A stretch of DNA of 24,567 bases from a virus: IMG/VR virus record IMGVR_UViG_3300017760_001430, positions 1 to 24,567 of that record; one strand, written 5' to 3'. Position numbers and translations under genes: made by a program. Below are positions 1 to 7,200 of this stretch, piece after piece. The notes below the pieces were generated by a model. It was not told the DNA's origin, ran no database searches, and worked only from the letters and a program-made list of their open reading frames with translations. Position 1 is the first letter of the stretch. Each line of letters begins with the position of its first letter.

Positions 1-574
1 GATGCGTAATGCTAATCTCCTTGCCGTTGCTCCTAACGCTAGTAGTAGTATTATATGTGCTGGTACGTCTCCCTCAGTAGAACCTTATCGAGCAAACGTC
101 TTTACTCATAAAACTTTATCAGGTTCTTATCAAGTAAAAAATAAATACTTAGAAAAAGTTTTAAGAAGTAAAGGATTGAAAGGAGAAGAACTTGACAACG
201 TTTGGAAAGACATTGCCGGTAAAAACGGTTCAATACAACATTTGTCTATGTTAGACGACACTGAAAAAGAATTATTTAAAACTGCAAATGAGATAAATCA
301 AATATGGATTATTGAACATGCCCATAAAAGACAAGAGTTTCTTTGTCAGAGTCAGTCAATAAATTTATTTTTTGTGTTACCGAAAGCCACTGAAGAACAA
401 GATGCTCACGATACATATATGCAATATGTAAATGATGTTCACTGGTACGGTATGCATAATTTAAAATCACTTTATTATTTTAGGTCTGATGCAGCTAGAG
501 CAGCAGAGAATGTTAATATAAAAGTTCCACGAATAAAACTAGATGATGTGGAATGTATAGCTTGTGAGGGATAA
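1..574 (+). CDS. nrdA: Ribonucleoside-diphosphate reductase, alpha (large) subunit, class I; C-terminal part only
   Basis: The reading frame is open from the window edge, so the true start and the first two thirds lie outside; the first Met is internal. About 190 residues are visible. They include the P-N-A-S-S-S loop of the active-site barrel near the start, the paired tyrosines of the radical-transfer path (S-L-Y-Y-F-R, about 35 residues before the end) and a C-terminal C-I-A-C-E-G tail. In this family the CxxC tail is the swinging disulfide that thioredoxin or glutaredoxin reduces after each turnover. The enzyme makes deoxynucleotides from ribonucleotides in the cytoplasm with NrdB, encoded 1 kb downstream on the same strand. 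The catalytic thiyl-radical cysteine is not in the window. Identification is firm; the truncation is a window-edge effect. Confidence 0.95.
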   Translation, partial: MRNANLLAVAPNASSSIICAGTSPSVEPYRANVFTHKTLSGSYQVKNKYLEKVLRSKGLKGEELDNVWKDIAGKNGSIQHLSMLDDTEKELFKTANEINQIWIIEHAHKRQEFLCQSQSINLFFVLPKATEEQDAHDTYMQYVNDVHWYGMHNLKSLYYFRSDAARAAENVNIKVPRIKLDDVECIACEG

Positions 575-575
575 T

Positions 576-1007
576 ATGAAACACAGTATAGCAATGTTAA
601 TAGTTAGTATACTAGGTATTGGTGGAATACTCTATACAACTATCATAAATGCAGAAGTGTCTGGGTACGGAGACGTACATGGTTGTGGAGGTGAATGTTA
701 CAAAGAATATACTGTAAAGTATGGTACATTTACAGAACAACTAGAAGCAAAAAGAGTTGCAATGCAAACAGAAACACCTGCTGATAAAGGTGCTAAGATA
801 TATGTTAACTGTAATATGTGTCACGGCATGAAAGGAGAAGGAGGTATTGGACCAAAACTATCTGGCAGTACGTCTATTGTAAAAATGTTAATGCAATATA
901 AAAACGGAGAAACTAGAGGTGCACAGTCTGCTCTTATGTGGGGTCAAGCTGCTAACTTATCTTCTGAAGATATGAAAAATTTACAAGCTTACATTAATAC
1001 TTTATGA
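576..1007 (+). CDS. Exported class I cytochrome c, single heme (c4/c553-like)
   Basis: A 143-aa protein starting at ATG 576, one base after the nrdA stop, with GAGGGA just upstream; an in-frame GTG at 564 lies inside nrdA and is less likely. Residues 1-26 form a hydrophobic signal peptide or anchor ending in I-N-A. The mature part carries one heme c motif, C79-N-M-C82-H83, then G-x-G-G-I-G-P-x-L-x-G as in small class I cytochromes. The end, M121-W-G-Q-A-A-N-L-S-S-E-D-M...A-Y-I, has the classic sixth-ligand methionine and C-terminal helix. An extra pair, C37-G-G-E-C41, lies near the mature N-terminus. Heme would be attached in the periplasm by host Ccm machinery. It should be an electron carrier; partner unknown. 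The stop overlaps the next start (ATGA), implying translational coupling. Confidence 0.88.
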   Translation: MKHSIAMLIVSILGIGGILYTTIINAEVSGYGDVHGCGGECYKEYTVKYGTFTEQLEAKRVAMQTETPADKGAKIYVNCNMCHGMKGEGGIGPKLSGSTSIVKMLMQYKNGETRGAQSALMWGQAANLSSEDMKNLQAYINTL

Positions 1008-2600: not shown

Positions 2601-2799
2601 TATAATAAGTTTTAAAGTAGTGCTTACTGCTAACAACGATATTGTTACGGAGTTAAGTATGCTACCGGTAGAAGAAGTGGATAAGGTATTTAAAACTAGA
2701 GACGAGAATGAGATAGTTAAGACTATCCTACAGGCAGGGAAAAAGAAATTTTCCACCTTACATAATTATTTTCAGAGTGAACTAGATTTTATAAAGTAG
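2578..2799 (+). CDS. Hypothetical protein, last gene of the nrd operon
   Basis: 73 aa, starting within the nrdB 3' end (23-bp overlap) behind a GGAGGAGA ribosome binding site at about 2565-2573. It begins with a basic stretch (M-A-K-K-K), followed by an alternating hydrophobic strand (I-I-S-F-K-V-V-L-T) and helices rich in charged residues. No cysteine, membrane helix or known motif is seen. I do not recognise it. It stops about 3 bp from the converging minus-strand unit, so it probably ends the plus-strand transcription unit. Confidence 0.65.
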   Translation: MAKKKEANIISFKVVLTANNDIVTELSMLPVEEVDKVFKTRDENEIVKTILQAGKKKFSTLHNYFQSELDFIK

Positions 2800-2802
2800 T
2801 TC

Positions 2803-2895
2803 TTATAGTGCTGTAATTGAAGCATACATTACTGTCATTGTTATCCAGAACAGGATACAGAGGACACAGAAATCCTCGCCATTGCCATTTTTCAC
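2803..2895 (-). CDS. Possible 30-aa single-helix membrane peptide, GTG start
   Basis: A short frame starts at GTG 2895, with an in-frame stop a few codons upstream and a GGAGG sequence about 12 nt before it (spacing longer than ideal). It would encode a polar start (K-N-G-N-G-E-D) and then about 22 hydrophobic residues containing two cysteines, ending in S-I-T-A-L. That is a single transmembrane segment. It is the last gene of the lysis end of the late operon, directly after the holin-like gene, and could modulate lysis. A competing 42-aa frame from ATG in the same stretch reads as non-membrane protein and lacks its own ribosome binding site. Moderate to low confidence that it is expressed. 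Confidence 0.4.
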   Translation of the reverse strand: MKNGNGEDFCVLCILFWITMTVMYASITAL

Positions 2896-2929
2896 TAGCT
2901 TTTTTTACCTCCATAAGCATTGGTTAAAA

Positions 2930-3292
2930 TTATTTTGAATCTGTTTGTTTTAGTTTGTCATAACTTCTCATTCCTGCAATTCCTAACATGCCGGTTAGAA
3001 GTGGCATCATTACACTAGCATCAGCTTGTGGTATATCTATACCAAAACCTTTTGCTATTGGTGAGATTAAAAAGTTAATAGCTAATCCGGCAACACAAAC
3101 ATAACCTGTTAGTGGTCGCCATGAAGATTGAAACCAATTACCTTTAGCTTCAAGTTTATTTATTTCTACCTGTGCTAGATTAGCCTGATGAAATAGTGTT
3201 TTTAGTTCGTGGTCAAGTTGGGCTTGTAAGTCTTTATCTTTTACTAGCTTACCAACTAAATTACTCACTGGTTTTATTAATGTTTCAAACAT
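2930..3292 (-). CDS. Holin, GTA-type (3TM holin family-like)
   Basis: 120 aa from ATG 3292, chosen because GGAGG sits 6 nt upstream; a longer frame to 3349 lacks such a site. The first half is an amphipathic, charged helix region (about 1-60). Then W-R-P-L-T-G-Y at about 76-82 leads into a hydrophobic segment (C-V-A-G-L-A-I-N-F-L-I), a short polar loop and a second hydrophobic stretch ending G-M-R-S-Y-D-K. The W-R-P-x-x-G-Y entry and the terminal G-M-R-x-x-x-K recall the GTA/3TM holin family. Holins permeabilise the inner membrane to time endolysin action. The endolysin gene is nearby in the same operon. The gene overlaps the upstream MscS-like gene by 8 bp. Other small membrane protein roles are possible. 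Confidence 0.7.
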   Translation of the reverse strand: MFETLIKPVSNLVGKLVKDKDLQAQLDHELKTLFHQANLAQVEINKLEAKGNWFQSSWRPLTGYVCVAGLAINFLISPIAKGFGIDIPQADASVMMPLLTGMLGIAGMRSYDKLKQTDSK

Positions 3293-3644
3293 CTTTTGCC
3301 TCCAATATTTTTCTAAGTTTTTCTGCTTTCTCCATAGCTGAGTCAGCATGTAAATCTTGGTCTACAACTTTTTCAAGTTTTATAGAATCTATTTTTTGAT
3401 TGGGAATATACCTCCATGTATATCCATCATCTGAGTATACCCCGAATACAGTCTGGGTAAACCCTATTTTAATTATCATTGCCACTTGTCCATCGAGAAT
3501 AACTTTGTCTCCTTCTTTAAAAGAGTTGCTAAGTCTAAAGGAAGCACCTTTTACAAAAGACATAGACCAGTCTTTCACAGCTAGACCAGTTAGCAAAGTT
3601 ATTATAAAGCCGATAGCCTCGACATAGTATTGTTCTAAGTCCAT
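3285..3644 (-). CDS. MscS-like beta-domain protein with one membrane helix
   Basis: 119 aa. Residues about 10-23 (I-G-F-I-I-T-L-L-T-G-L-A-V) form one membrane helix. They are followed by F-K-E-G-D-K-V-I-L-D-G, I-I-K-I-G-F-T-Q-T and W-R-Y-I-P-N-Q-K-I. This order (F-x-x-G-D-x-V, then a beta strand, then IPN-x-x-I) is the signature of the SH3-like beta domain of small-conductance mechanosensitive channels, where the pore helix leads straight into it. The channel family normally has three or more helices and about 280 residues; here only a pore-like helix plus the beta domain and a charged C-terminal helix remain. It sits between endolysin and holin, so a role in membrane permeability at lysis is plausible but unproven. 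Confidence 0.65.
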   Translation of the reverse strand: MDLEQYYVEAIGFIITLLTGLAVKDWSMSFVKGASFRLSNSFKEGDKVILDGQVAMIIKIGFTQTVFGVYSDDGYTWRYIPNQKIDSIKLEKVVDQDLHADSAMEKAEKLRKILEAKDV

Positions 3645-3645
3645 A

Positions 3646-3900
3646 TTATTTTATTTCAGGGTCAAAGTCTATAGTTCTTTCTAGAGCTTTATTAACTTGC
3701 TCAATAACATATTCAGCAACGTCTTGTTCTTTTCTCTCTAGTTTTTTTTCTACAGAATTTGTAAAGTATGTATCTAGTAAAGCTTCATAGATGTTTCTAA
3801 AGTCTTCTCGCCTTATCCAAGGCTCGTCACCTTTGGTTCTAGCTTTACAATCTATTCTATATGCTTCGTCTAAATCTCTTTCTCTGTATAATATCAACAT
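3646..3900 (-). CDS. Hypothetical protein in the lysis cluster
   Basis: 84 aa from ATG 3900, which overlaps the endolysin stop by one base (TAATG) and has GGAG 6 nt upstream; the in-frame Met four codons earlier lies inside the endolysin gene. The product is highly charged and mostly helical (E-R-D-L-D-E-A-Y, K-K-L-E-R-K-E-Q-D-V), with no signal peptide, membrane helix or cysteine motif beyond one Cys. I do not recognise it. In T7-like phages a small terminase gene lies near holin and lysozyme genes and has similar size and charge, so a terminase small subunit or lysis accessory role are both conceivable. No sequence evidence favours either. Confidence 0.65.
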   Translation of the reverse strand: MLILYRERDLDEAYRIDCKARTKGDEPWIRREDFRNIYEALLDTYFTNSVEKKLERKEQDVAEYVIEQVNKALERTIDFDPEIK

Positions 3901-4265
3901 TAGTAGCTCCAAATACGAGGAGTGGCTCGTGAGTTATCCATATCTATATGAATAAATCTTGAAGCATGGTCTCCTTTTTGTGCAACTCCTATCCTACTAA
4001 TACCCTCTTCCAGAGCTATTTTAACGAGTGTCATGGCTTGTTCTCCGTTGACTAGTATATCCATAGCCTTACCAGAAGAATGAGCTCCGGGAGAGCTCTT
4101 TTTAGCTTCTATGGGGTGTTCTGGAGAACGATAAGCACTGCTTACTTTGAAAGGGAAACCACAACGTTCTCTAATCCTTTCAACTGTCTGCATAAATGCC
4201 CAGTCCATATCACATAGACCAGTGTGTTTGCATTTAAGTTCATCTTCTGTAAAGTATTTATACAT
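3900..4265 (-). CDS. Endolysin, M15 family peptidase (D-Ala-D-Ala carboxypeptidase-like)
   Basis: 121 aa. It has the M15 metallopeptidase layout: S-A-Y-R-S-P-E-H at 43-50, then H62-S-S-G-K-A-M-D69 (the S-x-H-x-x-G-x-A-x-D zinc motif) and F-I-H106-I-D at 104-108 supplying the last zinc histidine. H62, D69 and H106 would bind zinc. Phage enzymes of this type cut peptide crosslinks in peptidoglycan at lysis; a single-domain 120-130-aa form is normal for the family. There is no signal peptide, so release must depend on a holin, consistent with the downstream holin-like gene. The start overlaps the end of the giant virion gene by 8 bp. No clear Shine-Dalgarno sequence is visible, suggesting coupled translation. 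Confidence 0.88.
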   Translation of the reverse strand: MYKYFTEDELKCKHTGLCDMDWAFMQTVERIRERCGFPFKVSSAYRSPEHPIEAKKSSPGAHSSGKAMDILVNGEQAMTLVKIALEEGISRIGVAQKGDHASRFIHIDMDNSRATPRIWSY

Positions 4266-7200
4266 TATTATTAGTTACTTTTTTTAATTGTGCTTTTTCT
4301 AATTCTTTTAACTGTCTTCTTTTAAGTAGTTTATCAGTCAGACTACCTCTGGCAGCACGTCTTACTGGTAGCTTATCAAATACTGCGATAACATCATCAC
4401 TTATATCAATGCCATCAAAGCCCTCTCTTTTTAAAACTTTTCTTTGTACAGGCGATACTTTACTTATATAGCCAGAGCCGTATGGTTTTACTAAGTTTTC
4501 TAAATCTACTAATTCTTTTCTAAACTTTCCAAGGTTCTTTCGAGTGTTAGTTCGCTTTGCGAAGTCAATAAGATTTTTTCTAGTGGTTATCTCTTTATTA
4601 ATATTTTTTAAAACATCATCTGATATATTTCTAGGATTGTATAAGTTTTTTACAACCTCGTTAAATACTTTTTCATCTATAATATTTACAAAACCTCCAC
4701 CTCTTGCATAATAGTTAGAGATGTCTAAACCTTTTTCAGTTGGCTTACCTAAATAACTAGCTGCTTGAAACATGTTTTGAAGTTTAGGGTCAACTCTATC
4801 TGCCATAGGTGTTACTTCTTTTAATTTTAAAGTACTACCGTGATAATATCTAAGAGGTTTTGGAACTCTTTTAGAATTTTTAAGTAAATTATCTACTAAC
4901 TTGTATCCATCTTTACCGATACCTGCAATTATTTTAGCAGTATTACCGCCTACTAATAACTCAATAACTGGTGCATTAGATTGTAATGACCCGCTTCTAA
5001 CACCTCCCATTCTTTCCACTTCAGCATCTAATCTATCTTTTTCTTCGTCAGTTAAACCACCTTCATTCATTGGCATTCTATTTAATAATGGAAAGTCTTC
5101 AACTACTAAACCAGAATAAGGTTCGCCAGTGTAAGGATTTACTCTATCGGCTGGATTTTCTTTAGTGTAAGGTACATCTTCTGTTCCTGTTATCAATCCT
5201 CCAGTAGATTTAGAAACTCTTTCTTTACCTTCTTGAGTATTATCGTAATCAAATAGAGGCATTTCATAATAACTACGTTTTAAACTTTTAACTTCAGCTC
5301 GTATATTAGGATAAAATCTAGAAATGTCTTTATTAGTTTTTACTATTTCTTCAAAAGTATCCGTATCAAAATCTAAAGGGAAAAAATTTGAAGAGTACTC
5401 TGCTGGTCCACCACCTAAACTTTTACGTATTAATTCTGGTACATTTTGGTCATCCATTTTAGATTTAAAATTTATATCTAAACGTTTTGAAGCTTGTACC
5501 AATCTATAATACTTAGTTACAGCTTTATGATAGTCAGTATGTACTGCTTTAATGTTTTCTATCAATTCATCTGGAGTATCTGCTTCAGTTGCAAATCTTC
5601 TAATCTGTCTTTCTAAATATCTTTTCCTTCCTAAAAACTCATTAGTTTTGTATTCAAAAACAGATTCTAAATATTCGTCTTCCATAGAAGTTGCACCAAT
5701 ACCTGATACAAGTTTTAAGAACTCTAAACCCTCAAAAACTTCTTGATTAAATTTAGTTTCATCTTTTCCATAATTTTCAAGATACCTTGCTGCTGAAACA
5801 AAAGCTCCGGGAGATAAAGTTACTGCTAATTTTTCTACTAATATCATTAAGTTGTCTTTATGTATTGTGCCTTTTTCTGGGTCAAATTCTTGACCGGGAT
5901 TCAAAAATCTACTTTTTAAAAGTCTACCATTATTATCTCTACCTCCTTGTAGCCAATAATCAGTCATTACATCCGTAAACATTGCTTCACCAAAGAAAGG
6001 AAGTAATGAATCTTCAACGGCTCTAAAAGCAAACTCATTTGCATCACCTTCAGGTAAATTTATTTCGTCTATATACTTAGGCACAAAAGTAATTAGTTTA
6101 TTAGGATAATCATAAAAATCATATCTACTGGTATTTATCATTAAAAGTTTACCAGTTTCAGGATGCCTAGTAAATACTAAATTATCATTTTGTAAAAAAT
6201 CTGCTGCAAATAATTTTAAATCTCTTTCTTGCTGCTCATCTATACCAGTAACATATCTATTAAATGCTTGGTATCCTAATACACCTACACCTACTGGAGC
6301 TCCATATTTAACAGCAGTATTACCTACCATCTTAACTAATTCTCCGGGAGCTCCTATCGCTGTCTGTGCAGCTATTCTTTTAATACCTCTGTTTCGCATT
6401 AGTTTACCTGCATCTGTCAAGCCATCTTTTATTAATTTATTTCCTAAAGTAATTTCATCCATGGCATGAATAGGACCTTGAACAGCTATACGAGTAGACT
6501 CTGCTAAAAATGAAAAGAAATTACCGATAGGTGCTCTTCGTAAACTTAAAAAATTAGGAGGAATAATATCATAATTAGGTAAACTTTTAAGAACTTTATT
6601 TGCTGCTTCTTTTTCTATAGCTTCAGTATTTTTAAATTTAAAGAAACCATCGTAATCATCAGGCAATGCATCATTAAATTTTTTAAGATTTTTTAATTCA
6701 ACTTCATACATTAAAATTTTAAAAAAATCATCTTCGGCAATATATATGTCTGTTAAATCATCAGAAAACTTAGTAGCTTTTTCTTTTATATTAGATAATA
6801 AAGTGTTCCTTGTTTTTAATTTTCCACCGCTAAAATCAAGAGGATTTTTTATATCTTCATAGTCTCTCATTAATCCTTTAATTTCTCTAGCGACAGGACC
6901 TTTATTTATAATATTTAAGCCTGTTAATTTTTCAACATAAGCTTGTTGTTCTTTATCAGTTTTTTTTAAAAAATCACTACGGACAGCACCCCAAGCTTTT
7001 GTAAACTCTTTATTAGTCGGGAAAACTCCTTGTGCCATTGTAGCATGTGCACCACCTGCCACGTTTTGTAAATGAGTTCCTTGATTCCAAACAGTTTTCA
7101 TTCTTTGTGAAAAACCTTTAAAATACATCCAGTTTTTATATAAGTATTGTGCAGTGTTTGCAAATATATTATCTGCAGTTTCTTCAAATCCATAAGGAGT

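Follow-up and report, generated by a model that had tools for sequence, protein, structure and literature searches.

A virus-encoded class I cytochrome c between ribonucleotide reductase genes: a viral family with a possible role in host respiration

Introduction

Why would a phage carry the gene for a c-type cytochrome between the two genes of its ribonucleotide reductase (RNR)? This question is raised by a reading frame of IMG/VR virus record IMGVR_UViG_3300017760_001430. The window analyzed here is that entire virus record, 24,567 bases in length, which is a genome fragment whose nrdA gene is cut by its end. The original prediction, made from the DNA letters, was that the frame between nrdA and nrdB encodes a class I cytochrome c with an export signal and all key residues intact, that such a gene is uncommon in phages, and that its product could sustain or divert host electron flow during infection. 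Viral control of cyanobacterial photosynthesis is well known, and cyanophages supply their photosynthetic hosts with plastocyanin (petE) and PTOX. To our knowledge, no equally common viral influence on respiration is well known for the most abundant heterotroph of the ocean.

The Cytochrome Gene and Its Product

The reading frame runs exactly from 576 to 1007 on the plus strand, with an ATG at 576 and a TGA at 1005-1007, and encodes a protein of 143 amino acids. This protein scores 33.6 bits against the Pfam family Cytochrom_C (PF00034, E = 1e-7), where the curated cut-off is 21.3 bits. The haem-binding motif CNMCH occupies residues 79-83 (810-824), and the sixth haem ligand, Met121 (936-938), lies within QSALMWGQA and corresponds in alignments to the Met ligand in bacterial domains of the c553/c4 type. 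A total of 89 distinct proteins of the family were extracted, and 67 of these were aligned to assess conservation. Both Cys and the His of the haem motif (C79, C82, and H83), along with P93, M121, and W122, are invariant in all 67, which rules out a loss of ligands among close homologs and confirms that the gene product is a class I c-type cytochrome with intact ligands. The alignment also reveals a second pair of cysteines that forms the CxGEC motif (C37-x-G-x-C41, 684-698; CGGEC at residues 37-41 of the window protein), a hallmark of the viral family. C37 and C41 are both conserved in 66 of the 67 members. The exception, L079 (5749-6222), is a lipoprotein-like cytochrome c variant without CxGEC that is found on a 340-kb viral contig with a PsiE-family gene; in the tree described below, this variant clusters with the viral cytochromes.

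The predicted export signal is present as a hydrophobic N-terminal helix (residues 2-25, 579-650; hydropathy 2.19 over 19 amino acids), which could serve as a signal peptide or as an anchor. The anchor is preferred because residues 2-25 form a helix in the AlphaFold model (pLDDT approximately 70-88) and because some relatives have no obvious cleavage site. Consequently, the helix may be retained, and the protein is probably membrane-anchored rather than freely soluble.

With 22 sequences, AlphaFold gave a model of low quality (pLDDT 67.5), while the model built with 67 family sequences has a mean pLDDT of 86 and reaches approximately 93 in the haem domain. The closest solved structures are those of Vibrio c554, Pseudomonas c552, and Desulfovibrio c553, with E values down to 1.3e-4, and superposition on c554 (2zzs) gives a TM-score of 0.85 (on target) and an rmsd of 1.4 Å, indicating a class I fold. 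A search of BFVD with the model returned no fold match. The viral proteins resemble the class I short-chain cytochromes c (c552/c553/c554 and single domains of c4; best structures 2zzs, 1cno, 8yts, and 1c53) in the fold of the haem domain, in the CxxCH motif near its start, and in the Met ligand before the last helix. In contrast to these cytochromes, they carry an additional membrane helix at the N terminus and the CxGEC linker, and they occupy a separate position in the tree.

Origin of the Haem Domain

In a haem-domain tree of 82 columns, in which the bacteria sampled were Pseudomonadota only, the viral proteins cluster as a single group (90/97) that is separate from the sampled bacterial proteins and far from the c2-type cytochrome of SAR11, with a long branch between them. 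Bacterial relatives recovered by homology search match mainly the haem domain, and their matches nearly always begin after the CxGEC motif; the membrane helix and CxGEC linker are therefore the mark of the viral family. A profile of the viral family (A1) found no match at E ≤ 0.01 in ten SAR11 genomes. Recent capture from a SAR11 cytochrome was rejected on the basis of this result and of the separation in the tree. Furthermore, a non-exhaustive pattern scan with two short peptides, which covered one genome from each of 84,980 species of bacteria and archaea, found no relative.

The nrdA-nrdB Operon and Its Small Genes

The cytochrome gene is preceded by the 3' part of nrdA (2-574, plus strand), which encodes the last 190 amino acids of the class I RNR large subunit (PF02867, E = 2.5e-30; phrog_84), with the 5' portion lying beyond the start of the contig. 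A Shine-Dalgarno-like GAGGG, read from the sequence, is found within the final nrdA codons (566-570, plus strand), the cytochrome ATG begins one base past the nrdA stop, and the cytochrome stop overlaps the start of the following gene as ATGA. The genes thus form one tightly packed operon. The order of genes is nrdA, cytochrome, TM74, a zinc-ribbon-like gene, orf69, and nrdB, all on the plus strand, so that the predicted placement of the cytochrome between nrdA and nrdB stands, with three small genes also present in the gap.

TM74 (1004-1228) is predicted to have a soluble N-terminal part followed by one C-terminal membrane helix, and it has no match in Pfam or NCBIfam. Of 30 viral loci with TM74, 22 have a cytochrome adjacent to it and 8 have no cytochrome; a role for TM74 as an obligate partner of the cytochrome was rejected. 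The 52-amino-acid zinc-ribbon-like protein (1242-1400), for which zinc-ribbon matches are weak only, is encoded in the gap of most related loci and is a frequent occupant of the nrdA-nrdB gap in the clade of the window phage. The third protein, orf69 (1393-1602), has 69 amino acids and matches phrog_1811 (E = 1.1e-12). It is followed by nrdB (1602-2600), which encodes the class I RNR small subunit (PF00268, E = 4.2e-73). A 73-amino-acid protein encoded after nrdB (2578-2799) matches phrog_27180, with a sub-threshold match to SBDS_N (E = 2.5e-4). Comparison of the closest nrdA-nrdB pairs indicates that the gap is a variable cargo slot, as a cytochrome is found there in only 4 of 79 pairs and other small genes are usually present. 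The cytochrome is therefore not essential.

The Phage and Its Presumed Host

The window carries lysis, tail, and virion genes, which are located on the minus strand. The best isolate match to its NrdB is that of HTVC115P, with 71% identity, and the first matches to its tail protein (44-47% identity) are from HTVC104P, HTVC103P, and HTVC115P, which we take to be HMO-2011-type phages; HMO-2011 itself is among the matches. The GC content (0.339 vs 0.322) was also counted for an affinity to SAR11 phages. Judged by these sequence comparisons, the window comes from a podovirus that is most closely related, among isolates, to HMO-2011-type pelagiphages (HTVC115P and HTVC103P/104P). The window does not extend to the replication genes, which in HMO-2011-type podoviruses include a DNA polymerase with a partial DnaJ domain. 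A SAR11 host is presumed from the isolates of related phages, whose hosts are SAR11 strains. In HTVC115P, the nrdA and nrdB genes abut with an overlap, and there is no cytochrome. As indicated by the structural and lysis genes and by the dN/dS values given below, the cytochrome gene sits intact and under selection on a bona fide phage genome, which makes it a candidate auxiliary metabolic gene.

Recurrence and Conservation of the Viral Family

A scan of viral sequences with the window protein identified 36 loci, and a scan with its alignment gave 118 matches. The nrdA-cytochrome-nrdB order recurs, and nrdA is directly 5' of the cytochrome in 35 IMG/VR loci from approximately 31 metagenomes. 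A chimera or misassembly was rejected on the strength of this shared junction. A second clade, approximately 40% identical, contributes at least 533 matches among those listed. The window cytochrome is placed by its sequence in a large family of two clades that is virus-only in the data searched. For the family (computed without the misaligned row L015), dN/dS has a median of 0.108 overall, which falls to 0.064 for the haem domain, indicating purifying selection. Both chance and a chimera are excluded by the 35 loci that share the junction, together with the purifying selection.

These results modify the view that such genes are uncommon in phages. The family is not rare in viruses, yet it is absent from the annotated phage records searched: tblastn with three different family members found no match in 50,697 phage records, and the window cytochrome has no match in PHROGs.

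Gene Neighborhood Across the Family

Among the commonest neighboring families, counted up to six genes away in both directions from the 89 distinct cytochromes, NrdA is found in 41 loci, NrdB in 39, glutaredoxin in 24, and peroxiredoxin in 22. Glutaredoxin is directly downstream of the cytochrome in 17 of its 24 loci, and peroxiredoxin is directly upstream in one group of loci. An RNase H-like gene, a name that does not come from the annotation tool, is near the cytochrome in 23 loci. Short membrane-protein genes are enriched beside the cytochrome and make up 51 of the 333 neighbors within two genes of it, versus 9 of the 294 neighbors that lie between four and six genes away (p = 9e-8 by Fisher test, relatedness ignored). 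In several T4-like contigs, an alternative oxidase (AOX) gene (PF01786, E down to 1e-69) is near or against the cytochrome. Conversely, of 55 viral AOX loci flanked by 2 kb or more on both sides, 23 contain a family cytochrome. The two genes share a strand in every case and abut in several; both gene orders occur and the spacing varies. Clustering of these neighbors may partly reflect the shared ancestry of T4-like genome regions, while the podovirus arrangement is separate. The recurrent neighbors point to respiration and redox chemistry as the probable setting of the cytochrome.

Several other features were observed in these contigs. AOX genes (PF01786) are frequent in marine T4-like viral contigs, where a single scan gave 114 matches, and they share 55-59% identity with SAR11 AOX; examples are L030 (8050-8622), L019 (4724-5326), and L045 (5279-5848). 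The only named phage record with an AOX gene is that of Phage C48C1 (OQ984149, 26279-26830), where it is annotated as hypothetical. Upstream of the AOX and cytochrome genes, L019 carries tctA of a tripartite tricarboxylate transporter (1314-2753; PF01970, E = 4e-93) directly followed by a gene that is TctC-like by eye (2753-3907), and tctA is present also in L042 and L043. A different phage type shows an RNR-linked arrangement of nrdB, a small membrane protein, a second-clade cytochrome, and glutaredoxin (L066, 937-2850). In eight loci, the gene immediately 5' of the cytochrome encodes a 133-amino-acid membrane protein of no known family (L411, 3600-3998). Finally, L001 contains a sigma-70-like site (5131-5159; TTGACA-17-TATAAT, 12/12) inside nrdA, approximately 840 bases upstream of the cytochrome; overall, promoter-like sites are not more frequent than in shuffled sequences.

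Proposed Role in Host Respiration

There is judged to be a little better than an even chance that the viral cytochrome functions as an auxiliary electron carrier of the host respiratory chain, and its assignment to the specific bc1-to-oxidase step is less certain. In the mechanism proposed here, we infer the SAR11 host, the topology, the haem loading, the redox partners, the timing, and the benefit of the cytochrome. The protein would be exported and anchored by its first helix with the haem domain facing the periplasm, and the host Ccm system would load it with haem. It would be made along with the RNR genes as DNA synthesis begins and the demand for dNTPs and ATP rises. Electrons would then pass, most likely, from the bc1 complex to the viral monohaem cytochrome and on to a terminal oxidase, and respiration and the proton-motive force would thereby be kept in step with the replication of the phage. 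Related T4-like phages pair the cytochrome with AOX, which would give quinol electrons a second outlet. Direct electron donation to RNR was also considered and was rejected on the predicted topology, as NrdAB is cytoplasmic. Infection by pelagiphage HTVC027P has been reported to raise host oxidative-phosphorylation transcripts, with no link to the present gene reported (PMC12753301).

Ten SAR11 genomes were sampled, some of them incomplete; cytochrome c1 was found in 8, oxidase subunit II (CuA) in 9, and CcmF in 9, while all ten carry an anchored monohaem cytochrome with a layout comparable to that of the viral protein. This c2-type, CycM-like protein (L206-L215) resembles the viral cytochrome in its N-terminal anchor, linker, single haem domain, and expected periplasmic orientation. 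The two differ in haem-domain subfamily, as the viral domain is not c2-type, and in net charge, which is near neutral in the viral haem domains (-4 to +3) and basic in the SAR11 protein (+4 to +10). A basic character is usual for carriers that bind at cytochrome c1 and CuA. Docking of the viral haem domain to the host bc1 and CuA sites is doubtful because of this difference in charge. Consequently, direct replacement of the host carrier appears less likely, and a partner other than bc1/CuA, or a diverting role, is possible.

In such a diverting role, the viral cytochrome would withhold or re-route electrons of bc1 or another periplasmic donor from the host oxidase, leaving a viral or host AOX to respire, with rapid quinol turnover free of control by the proton-motive force as the aim. 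The charge of the haem domain, the frequent pairing with AOX, and the occurrence of AOX in 59 of 147 SAR11-order genomes are consistent with this explanation, which is nevertheless unlikely, since the window podovirus shows no AOX within its 24.6 kb and the host oxidase is the sole acceptor identified.

Another explanation centers on redox stress, wherein the CxGEC pair would be a redox-active disulfide coupled to the haem that links thiol or peroxide chemistry in the envelope with the respiratory chain. The near-complete conservation of C37 and C41 and the glutaredoxin and peroxiredoxin genes that directly adjoin some cytochromes would fit this function. However, both of those proteins are cytoplasmic and the haem domain is expected outside the cytoplasm, while the CxGEC cysteines may form merely a structural disulfide, making this explanation quite improbable. 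Very unlikely is a function without electron transport, as a haem or iron sink or as an assembly or structural factor built on the cytochrome fold. Although the viral cytochrome has no known partner and the adjoining small membrane proteins are of unknown function, the His/Met ligation is invariant, the haem domain is under strong purifying selection, and the cytochrome has no virion-gene context in the window. That the cytochrome is a passenger of no benefit to the phage, as the variable cargo site between nrdA and nrdB might suggest, is highly improbable given a haem-domain dN/dS of approximately 0.06 and a family that spans unrelated phage types and gene orders.

Sustaining or diverting host electron flow, as originally suggested, thus stays the best functional guess, and it is strengthened by the neighboring viral AOX in related phages. 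The frequent place of the family beside nucleotide or respiration genes suggests that viruses adjust host respiration, and the cytochrome family looks like part of a viral module for this adjustment. In its broadest form, this reading states that phages of SAR11-like hosts carry a dedicated respiratory module, made up of the virus-only anchored cytochrome c, AOX, and small membrane proteins, that would re-engineer aerobic electron transport; it is put forward tentatively, at somewhat less than an even chance.

Relation to Known Viral Systems and Biological Significance

The arrangement in the T4-like contigs resembles that of petE and PTOX in cyanophages, in that a small viral electron carrier is combined with an AOX/PTOX-type quinol oxidase for use in the host chain. 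It differs in its carrier, which is a c-type cytochrome, and in its setting of heterotrophic respiration.

Other proteins of respiration or haem-based electron transfer have been reported from viruses, including a viral SoxD-type cytochrome c (PMC8190135, in which two phage soxD genes are without cytochrome motifs, in part or whole), CydAB (PMC12043954), cbb3 subunit I in viromes (PMC3474794), and cytochrome b5 in giant viruses (PMC11814380). These are different proteins that belong to different pathways. A search of the open-access literature, with subscription papers and preprints outside its scope, found no report of the viral cytochrome family. Although the fold is a known one, that literature appears to contain no description of the family, of its confinement to viruses in the data searched, of the CxGEC architecture, or of the link to AOX and RNR.

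A large family that is absent from the annotated phage collection searched would offer a direct genetic handle on viral control of respiration, and the conserved CxGEC motif and small membrane partners pose a testable biochemical question. If the proposed role is correct, phage infection of SAR11 would influence how the cells use oxygen and turn over carbon. If the module reading also holds, respiration would be re-engineered during infection, much as cyanophages adjust photosynthesis.
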